From Spirochaetaceae bacterium (GTDB taxonomy: Bacteria; Spirochaetota; Spirochaetia; DSM-27196; SLAA01), in the NCBI GenBank assembly GCA_003552665.1, contig PUNW01000073.1, positions 1 to 32,289 on the forward strand: a stretch of 32,289 nucleotides of DNA. Direction: 5' to 3'. This document shows positions 9,199 to 18,369 of this stretch, one piece after another (positions within the stretch are counted from its first letter, which is position 1; every line of letters starts with the position of its first letter). Both the position numbers and the translations under genes were made by a program. Below the pieces are notes generated by a model. That model was not told the origin of the DNA. It made no database searches and worked only from the letters and a program-made list of their open reading frames with translations.

Positions 9199-9657
9199 AT
9201 GGGTAGGGAGATGCAGATCAACACAAAGCCGTTTGGCTCGATCATGGTTGAGGAACGACAGATAATCACGTTTCCGAGCGGTATCTTCGGTTTCGAACAG
9301 CACACGCGTTTCGCCTTGCTGGACGCAAGCCAGGCACCGTTCTATTGGCTGCAAAGCGTTCACGCTGTGAATCCGGCTTTTTTGTTGATAAACCCCTACC
9401 TGTTCCGTCCGGATTACCTACTCGAGATCCCGGATACGGATTACGAGGAGCTCGGTCGCCCTCCTCAGGAGGAAATTCTCGTGTTTGCGATCGTGACGGT
9501 GCCGGAGCGGCCGGAGGAGCTGACCGCAAACCTGCAGGGTCCGCTGGTGATCAACCGCAAACAACGGATCGCGAAGCAGAGTATTCATCGCGACGGCCGC
9601 TGGCATACCAAGCACCGTATTCTCGAAGAAAGCCCACAGGCGGTAAGAACGCGATAA
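9199..9657 (+). CDS. fliW: Flagellar assembly factor FliW
   Basis: [32 protein letters not shown]...[14 protein letters not shown]; adjacent to csrA. Confidence 0.95.
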
Positions 9658-9995
9658 TGCTTGTATTGGCCCGGAAGCTGCACGAATCAATTCGAATCGG
9701 CGATGAGATCGAGGTCTCGGTGGTCGAGATCAAGGGCGACCAGGTGAAGCTCGGTATCAAAGCGCCCCCGCGAATCACCGTGCACCGCCAGGAGGTGTAC
9801 GAAGCTATTCAGCGTGAGAACGTTAGTGCGGCAGAGGCCGAGCCCAGCCGTGTTCCATCGCTCGAAGGAGTGCTCAACCAGCCCCAGCCGGACGAGCCGA
9901 ATCAGCCGCAGCGGAAGGCGGCGCCGGGAAAACCGGGCAAACAGGAAAAACCGGGCAAACGGAGCAACTCGGGCGGGTCGAGCGAACGGCCGTAA
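9657..9995 (+). CDS. csrA: Carbon storage regulator CsrA with long low-complexity C-terminal tail
   Basis: [61 protein letters not shown] overlaps the fliW stop (TAATG). The supplied ORF (9345-9995) begins far upstream of this start. Confidence 0.95.
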
Positions 9996-16171: not shown

Positions 16172-17035
16172 TCAACCCAACAGCTGAAGCACTGACTGCG
16201 GTTGCGTGTTGGCTTGTGCGAGCATCGCGGTGGTGGCCTGCGTGAGAATCTGGCTGCGCACAAAGTCAACCATCTCGTCGGCCATGTTCGCGTCGCGGAT
16301 CAACGACTCGGCTGCGGCGAGGTTCTCGGATGCGATCTGCACGCTCGATTGCGCCATCTCAAAACGGTTCTGATAGGCCCCCAGATCCGCGCGTTGGCGC
16401 GAGACCTGGTTGAGCGCGCTGTCAACGACGCCAATGGCCTGGTTTGCCAGATCAGGGGTAGAGATCGAGATAATGTCGTTATTCCCGTTCTCCCCTGGAG
16501 CGCCGCCCAGCCCCAGCGCCGCCGCGGTCATGGTCCCGATGAACACCTGCTCGTTCTGGTCCATGTTGGGGCCGACGTGAAACTGCATCACTCGGTCAAC
16601 CGCGCTGTCGTGTGCGAACGCACCGGTAAGCATATTCATGTTGTTGAACTGAGCGTGCGATGCGATGCGGTTTACCTCCGCGACCAGCTGCGATACCTCA
16701 ACCTGGATTTGCATGCGGTCTTCATCGGTGTAGATGCCGTTGGCGGACTGGATCGCGAGCTCGCGCATCCGGTGTAGAATGTCCTGCGTGTTCTGCAGGT
16801 AGCCTTCGGTCGTCTGAATGAACGACACCGCATTCTGGATGTTGCGGTCGGCCTGATTCAACCCGCGAATCTGGCTGCGCAGCTTCTCTGACACCGCCAA
16901 TCCCGAAGCATCGTCACCGGCACGGTTGATTCGCATGCCTGAGCTCAGGCGCTCGATTGTGCCGTGCGTTTCCGCGTTACGGAGCCCCAGCTGCCGGCTC
17001 GCAAAAGCCGCACTGGTGTTGTGATTAATGATCAT
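16172..17035 (-). CDS. flaB: Flagellin (FlaB-type core filament protein), copy 1
   Basis: [60 protein letters not shown]-term [33 protein letters not shown]. Confidence 0.96.
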
Positions 17036-17060
17036 AAACCCTCCTTGCAATTGGAAGCAC

Positions 17061-17082
17061 GAAAAGCCATCCATAGCTTTTC
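17061..17082 (-). promoter_or_regulatory. Leader hairpin of flagellin copy 1 with AUGGA in the loop (candidate CsrA site)
   Basis: RNA sense GAAAAGC-UAUGGAUG-GCUUUUC, 7-bp stem, about 25 nt upstream of the AAGGAGG SD. Confidence 0.6.
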
Positions 17083-17186: not shown

Positions 17187-17213
17187 TTATCAGCACCCAA
17201 GGAGGGGCTTTTT
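17187..17213 (-). promoter_or_regulatory. Candidate sigma-28 promoter of flagellin copy 1
   Basis: Minus strand AAAAAGCC-N11-GCTGATAA; resembles TAAAGTTT-N11-GCCGATAA, with a weak -35. Confidence 0.45.
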
Positions 17214-17252: not shown

Positions 17253-18110
17253 CTATTGGAGTAATTGCAACACATTCTGGTTTTGCAGGTTTGCCTGAGC
17301 CAGCATGGCCGTGGTGGACTGCATCAGGATCGCATTCTTGCTGAAGTCTACCATCTCGGCGGCCATATCGGTGTCACGGATCCGTGACTCGGCGGCGGCC
17401 ATGTTCTCAGCCCCGATGTCGATACCTTCAATCGCCATCTCGAGGCGGTTCTGGTACGCTCCAAGGTCGGCGCGCTGCTTGCTCACGACCTGCAACGCAG
17501 AATCGACCATACCGATCGCCTGGTTGGCCAGATCGGGGGTGGACAACGAAATGATCTCGTTATCGGCGCCCCGCATTCCGAGGGCCGTTGCGGTCATCGT
17601 TCCGATGTAGACGCGCTCGCGCTGGTCCATGTTCGCGCCGATGTGGAAATACATCGATGCGGTGACGATGTTCTCGCCGGTATCGGCGGCAAAACGACCG
17701 GTGAGAAGGTTCATGTTGTTGAACTGTGCGTGCGAAGCAACCCGGTCGATCTCGGCGACGAGCTGGGAAACCTCTACCTGGATTTGCATACGATCTTCGT
17801 CGGTGTAGATTCCGTTCGAGGCCTGTATGGCAAGCTCGCGCACGCGCTGCAATATGTCCTGACTCTCCTGCAGGTAGCCTTCAGTGGTCTGGATGAACGA
17901 TACGCCGTTGGCTGCGTTGCGGGAGGCTTGCTGCAGGCCGCGGATCTGAGAGCGCATTTTCTCGGACACGGCGAGGCCGGAGGCGTCGTCGCCGGCGCGG
18001 TTAATGCGCATTCCCGACGACAGCTTCTCCATGTTGCCACTGATCGAGCGTTCGTTGATCCCCAGCTGACGGCTTGCAAATGCAGCGCTGGTGTTGTGGT
18101 TGATAATCAT
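17253..18110 (-). CDS. flaB: Flagellin (FlaB-type core filament protein), copy 2
   Basis: [66 protein letters not shown]-term [22 protein letters not shown]. Confidence 0.97.
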
Positions 18111-18139
18111 AACCTGTTTCCTCCGTGAAGGTTGTTTTG

Positions 18140-18157
18140 CAAGGCTTCCGTGCCTTG
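18140..18157 (-). promoter_or_regulatory. Leader hairpin of flagellin copy 2 with ACGGAA hexaloop (candidate CsrA site)
   Basis: RNA sense CAAGGC-ACGGAA-GCCUUG, perfect 6-bp stem, ~25 nt upstream of the ACGGAGG SD. Confidence 0.65.
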
Positions 18158-18241
18158 TACGGGATTGAGCCGCAAACAGCGACCGTGTTGATGACAGCTA
18201 TTCAGGGTCTGCTATCACCTCCTTATTTGCCCGAATCACGC

Positions 18242-18267
18242 AAAAAAGGCTCAACTGCCTTCAGTTG
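18242..18267 (-). terminator. Terminator-like hairpin inside the leader of flagellin copy 2
   Basis: RNA sense CAACUG-AAGG-CAGUUG-AGCC-UUUUUU; alternative AAGGC/GCCUU stem abuts the U-tract. Confidence 0.5.
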
Positions 18268-18284
18268 CGCGCCGACAATCTAAG

Positions 18285-18342: not shown

Positions 18343-18369
18343 TTATCGGCATACCACCCATTAACTTTA
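18343..18369 (-). promoter_or_regulatory. Sigma-28 (FliA) promoter of flagellin copy 2
   Basis: Minus strand reads TAAAGTTA-N11-GCCGATAA, matching the FliA consensus in both elements and spacing. Confidence 0.88.

Follow-up and report, generated by a model that had tools for sequence, protein, structure and literature searches.

The question raised by this locus is whether the leader of a spirochaete flagellin gene contains a switch through which CsrA controls translation. The window, that is, the whole stretch of 32,289 nucleotides that was analysed, contains two flagellin (FlaB) genes arranged in tandem on the minus strand and recognized by their Pfam Flagellin_N/C domains: copy 2, the first of the tandem (17253–18110), and copy 1, the second (16175–17035, with its ATG at 17035). 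An original prediction proposed that the copy-2 leader folds into a CAAGGC-ACGGAA-GCCUUG hairpin, with GGA in the hexaloop, followed at a GGA-to-GGA distance of about 25 nt by an ACGGAGG at the Shine-Dalgarno (SD) sequence, which would be the architecture by which CsrA represses hag in Bacillus subtilis. The hairpin was found exactly as described at 18157–18140 of the minus strand, with the 5′ arm CAAGGC at 18157–18152, the loop ACGGAA at 18151–18146 and the 3′ arm GCCTTG at 18145–18140. It is followed by a 13-nt linker, CAAAACAACCTTC, absent from the sequence quoted in that prediction, by the SD ACGGAGG at 18126–18120, by AAACAGGTT and by the ATG at 18110–18108. The loop GGA (18149–18147) and the SD GGA (18124–18122) are separated by exactly 25 nt. 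The first predicted CsrA site is thus the hairpin (18140–18157), which presents GGA in an CANGGANG hexaloop and is backed by sequence, fold, covariation in 54 distinct relatives and a covariance model match of 4.1e-11, and the second is the ACGGAGG overlapping the SD (18120–18126), ANGGAGG being common to all 49 leaders of first-of-tandem genes and to almost every other leader. Taken together with the evidence described below, the copy-2 leader is very probably a two-site CsrA target that would coordinate the production of flagellin with the assembly of the filament.

The 6-bp stem is without mismatches, and it is the structure given by the centroid when the leader is folded in isolation. The fold of the whole 68-nt leader is of ordinary stability (z −0.8), so that energy alone was unable to prove the hairpin and the evidence was sought in relatives. 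A longer fold of the leader gave z −2.4, with no conserved RNA structure found in its upstream part, and no curated Rfam family was matched in the window at the gathering score. A second hairpin around the copy-2 SD would have only 3 bp and is weak, and it is not claimed for this locus; such an SD-side hairpin is supported in a standalone paralog and, among first-of-tandem leaders, in just a minority.

Leaders were collected from up to 61 related genomes (the nearest named relatives of the source genome being Spirochaetaceae/Spirochaetales MAGs) and divided into those of first-of-tandem genes such as copy 2 (A), second-of-tandem genes such as copy 1 (B) and standalone genes (C). At a strict cut-off, a hairpin with GGA in its loop was present in 41/49 A, 33/44 B and 34/37 C leaders, compared with means of 0.46, 0.56 and 0.34 in dinucleotide shuffles, counts that are not readable as probabilities because the leaders share descent. 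Only 1 of 49 upstream control stretches contained a hairpin of such strength. A looser, in-register search recovered the hairpin in 47/49 A and 37/37 C leaders, and most of the A leaders that failed the strict cut-off still closed the same loop with a GC stem of 4 bp. The CANGGANG hexaloop itself was found in 44/49 A and 37/37 C leaders and in 8/44 of the B leaders, where it is scarce because their loops are mostly of 7 nt. The SD reads CANGGAGG in 49/49 A leaders, so that a second ANGGA overlaps the Shine-Dalgarno sequence, and the median GGA-to-GGA spacing is 25, 25 and 24 nt in A, B and C, respectively.

A key observation was that the stem covaries strongly, as revealed when the covariation check suggested by the original prediction was carried out. 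Each of the seven pairs showed changes on both sides among the 54 distinct hairpins of types A and C, with 121 double-change cells versus 41 in shuffles; the hairpins counted had been chosen for their GGA loop, and two of the three groups kept nearly all of their leaders. The covariation score was 0.723, compared with at most 0.248 when the partners were slid, a control that preserves relatedness, and swapped arms paired at 0.75–0.82 versus 0.97 for own arms. Within the loop, the A, G, G and A are invariant, the C/G closing pair is kept in at least 90%, and the two remaining positions are free. The original prediction had named a result that would tell against it, namely close relatives whose leaders lack the stem and the loop GGA; when this was looked for, stem, loop, spacing and SD site proved to persist in many families. 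These observations argue that the two-site arrangement is real and not due to chance, and that it would represent an ancient regulatory element of a type described before.

The layout is not special to copy 2. The original prediction called copy 2 canonical, which holds, although it understated the case, since all three intact flagellin copies of the genome share the layout. In copy 1, the hairpin GAAAAGC-UAUGGAUG-GCUUUUC (17061–17082, minus strand; model match 1.5e-7) has GGA in its loop and is followed by the SD AAGGAGG (17040–17046, minus strand), a second GGA site at a GGA-to-GGA distance of 28 nt. The third gene, a standalone one on contig C295 (L002), has a leader with CUCCGGAC-ACGGAA-GUCCGGGG and AAGGAGG. 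The three intact flaB paralogs therefore present one two-site layout, with a different stem in each. The leader loop of the standalone gene is a close match to the SELEX core of CsrA, ACANGGANGU. Part of yet another flagellin gene, with its start outside the assembly, lies at the end of contig C396 (G000:C396:4-477).

A covariance model of the element (R1) was used to search the whole genome and the class. In the genome, R1 identified the three flaB leaders (E 4.1e-11, 2.4e-10 and 1.5e-7), all of which were in its training set, so that the informative part of this result is that nothing else matched: the next match had E 0.045, taken as chance, and no other CsrA target of two-site layout was found in the genome by R1. 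Across 198 genomes of the class, 116 were matched at E≤1e-5 (tallied by hand), all of them among the 157 FlaB-positive genomes, while none of the 41 FlaB-negative genomes was matched at that threshold or showed any value below 2e-4. Every one of the best 30 class-wide loci directly precedes a flagellin start. Borrelia-like small genomes and some other families gave no R1 match despite having csrA and flaB. Earlier accounts, each limited to one species, of CsrA action on spirochaete flagellin are thereby extended to a class-wide, covariation-backed RNA element, which is found ahead of most flagellin genes of the class, in front of several paralogs per genome, and disappears where flagella are lost.

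Both fliW and csrA had been reported to lie in the same window, and both were found there, overlapping, on the plus strand. The product of fliW (9211–9657; PF02623, E 4e-39) is the flagellin-binding CsrA antagonist, and its nearest solved structure is the FliW of the FliW–CsrA complex 5dmb. The csrA gene (9657–9995; PF02599, E 3e-24) begins at the final base of the stop codon of fliW, a 1-base overlap. Its product gives a gapless alignment with the CsrA chain of that complex (5dmb_D) and keeps R44, I51 and N55, the last of which is needed for FliW binding in B. subtilis and Campylobacter jejuni (PMC7829508). The protein has 112 amino acids in all, with a long, low-complexity C-terminal tail (encoded at 9822–9995). 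Among the 61 relatives, csrA was found in 54, fliW in the identical 54, and flaB in those plus one incomplete genome, so that the three genes are jointly present or absent in 60/61 and are inherited and lost as one set. Given that the searches found one csrA per genome and that it is lost jointly with fliW and flagellin, CsrA would look like a dedicated flagellar regulator in such spirochaetes.

In the mechanism that these elements suggest, one CsrA dimer would place one RNA pocket on the ANGGAN hexaloop and the other on the SD-containing ANGGAGG 25 nt away, a gap that falls within the range bridgeable by one dimer (about 10–63 nt, with an optimum above 18; PMC4066749, PMC7652899). The bridged CsrA would block ribosome entry. 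By analogy with B. subtilis and C. jejuni, once flagellin is exported, free FliW would bind CsrA, releasing the leader for translation; when flagellin backs up, it would hold FliW and CsrA would repress again. The interpretation of the original prediction, namely CsrA repression, is well supported by the conserved two-site layout, the covariation, the specificity of R1 and the joint loss of fliW, csrA and flaB, with binding, repression and relief by FliW being the presumed steps. The sequence would be compatible with either direction of effect, repression or activation; for comparison, flaB mRNA was raised by csrA overexpression in Leptospira interrogans (PMC8668096).

The copy-2 leader is of a kind already known from B. 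subtilis hag, C. jejuni flaA, and Borrelia and Leptospira flaB. The comparison with hag drawn in the original prediction is fair: as described (PMC7652899, PMC6529632), hag is a flagellin target with two sites, one of them on the SD, and fliW and csrA are adjacent, although one flagellin target is described there and several are found here. At least as close is C. jejuni flaA (PMC4894983), a flagellin mRNA with two GGA sites (21 nt apart there, 25 here) and an CANGGANG hexaloop, named in that work as the high-affinity CsrA/RsmE hexaloop, where CsrA is under FliW control. It differs in that both its sites lie in hairpins, whereas any hairpin at the copy-2 SD site is weak or missing altogether, and in that here three paralogs have a common layout. 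Within the spirochaetes, the flaB leader of Borrelia burgdorferi, insofar as the work of Sze (2011) is summarized in PMC8668096, is likewise bound by CsrA, with GGA on or near the SD, although Borrelia-like small genomes are those without a significant R1 match. The Leptospira flaB leaders are also bound by CsrA at GGA on or near the SD, but their sites were reported as a single SD-proximal hexaloop (PMC8668096). In Treponema denticola, csrA belongs to a flgN-flgK-flgL-fliW-csrA cluster, and flaB1 and flaB2 have predicted CsrA sites near the SD, flaB2 with a sigma28 promoter (PMC9481697); csrA near fliW, CsrA sites by the SD and the sigma28 promoter of flaB2 are all points of likeness to the present locus. 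In contrast, leader architecture does not feature in that paper, and the Treponema loci in the present comparison carry the hairpin at a more upstream position or not at all and are without the facing sigma28 pair described below.

A different role for the same elements would be that of a sponge: the abundant flaB mRNA would mainly titrate CsrA off other transcripts, the repression of FlaB being secondary. The C. jejuni flaA leader both titrates CsrA and is repressed by it (PMC4894983), and the CANGGANG loops of the A and C leaders, together with the closeness of the standalone paralog to the SELEX core, would suit such a role. However, the SD carries a second site in every first-of-tandem leader, which fits repression, and the R1 search revealed no other strong target of two-site layout from which CsrA could be titrated in this genome. 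We consider it unlikely that titration is the main function; the leader might act as a CsrA sponge in addition to being repressed.

Less probable still is the notion that CsrA does not read the loop GGA and that the hairpin serves stability or spacing, as ordinary structures at the 5′ end of an mRNA do. The ordinary stability of the isolated leader would be compatible with it, and so would a natural case of GGA loss: in family f8, 7/7 copy-1 leaders (L022, L026, L027, L029, L032, L034 and L164) retain the stem (CCGGC...GCCGG) with loops reading AAYGANU in place of the GGA loop, which indicates that the hairpin can persist where the CsrA motif is absent. Against it, the copy-2 leaders of the same f8 genomes retain GGA, the 54 distinct sequences all have an unchanged A-N-G-G-A, whereas their stems and the two N positions are free to vary, and csrA and fliW co-occur with flaB. 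In C. jejuni flaA, changing the GGA of the first hairpin to UGA raised flagellin two- to threefold and freed it from dependence on csrA (PMC4894983), and this change, which releases repression there, is the one seen naturally in the f8 copy-1 leaders. We infer that copy 1 of f8 escaped hairpin-dependent repression, through a loss of the loop GGA that may have been a single ancestral change; this paralog-specific loss provides a ready test of how paralogs of a mixed filament get different levels. Equally improbable is that only the SD-overlapping GGA is used, with one CsrA site per mRNA and the hairpin as a relic, for although such single-site targets exist (review PMC7652899), compensatory change maintains the hairpin and all three paralogs keep the two sites about 25 nt apart.

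Upstream of the CsrA switch, the copy-2 leader presents a feature that was unanticipated and lends itself to testing. The sequence and the scan of relatives identify a sense sigma28-type promoter of copy 2, TAAAG-N14-GCCGATAA, at 18343–18369 of the minus strand, and the scan also identifies a second one facing it in antisense, TCAAC-N15-GCCGACAA, at 18251–18278 of the plus strand, the two −10 elements having their inner ends 64 nt apart. Such a facing pair upstream of the CsrA hairpin was found in 45/49 A, 0/44 B and 0/37 C leaders (0.65 in shuffles), the weak members being approximate because the scan accepted a −35 with 3/5 matches and fixed only the CGA of the −10. A sense sigma28 promoter was found in 36/37 C leaders. 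The inner ends of the −10 elements lie 57–68 nt apart in 44 of the 45 paired A leaders, 64 being the commonest distance. The pair is present in most named loci outside Treponema and absent from the Treponema-like ones. The open frame upstream, a TPR gene in the window, is on the same strand as flaB and ends before it in the loci examined, so that the antisense promoter serves no divergent gene here. Between the two −10 elements, no RNA covariation or conserved structure was found (the consensus was empty, and own and swapped arms paired similarly), and the inverted repeat is therefore read as two promoters at the DNA level. Nothing on facing flagellin sigma28 promoters was found in a literature search of partial coverage. 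A terminator-like hairpin, GAAGGC-AGTTGA-GCCTTTTTT, lies within the same leader (18237–18262, minus strand); its reading as an attenuator was rejected, as it is genus-only and overlaps the antisense −35 region.

The same leader contains an orphan SD, AAGGAGGTGAT, at 18214–18224 of the minus strand, identified in the sequence and in relatives, which is a full complement to the anti-SD of the 16S tail, has no start codon behind it and is also an AAGGA site. A AAGGAGGTGAT-like sequence near −91 to −122, with at least 7 nt exact, was found in 32/49 A leaders and in 0/81 of the B and C leaders. The possibility that it starts a small ORF was rejected, there being no ATG 4–15 nt behind it in 28/28 leaders with AGGAGG. 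It could bind 30S subunits that protect the 5′ end, or could be a third CsrA site. A tentative reading, judged slightly less likely than not, is that the copy-2 leader might be a composite device: the facing sigma28 promoters, at a fixed distance of about 64 nt, would either hinder one another or give rise to a short RNA antisense to the start of the leader, the start-less SD downstream of them would bind 30S or protect the RNA, and the CsrA switch would set translation. The device would belong only to the first flagellin of the tandem in Spirochaetales except the Treponema-like ones, and is undescribed in the literature searched.

A minor observation concerns the region between the two flagellin genes, where CCCTCCTTG (17198–17206, minus strand) is complementary to the copy-1 SD CAAGGAGGG (17038–17047, minus strand). 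Sequestration of the SD is possible in copy-1-type leaders, as an exact 8–9-nt complement to the SD was found in 12/43 of them, compared with 1/37 standalone and 1/49 copy-2-type leaders.
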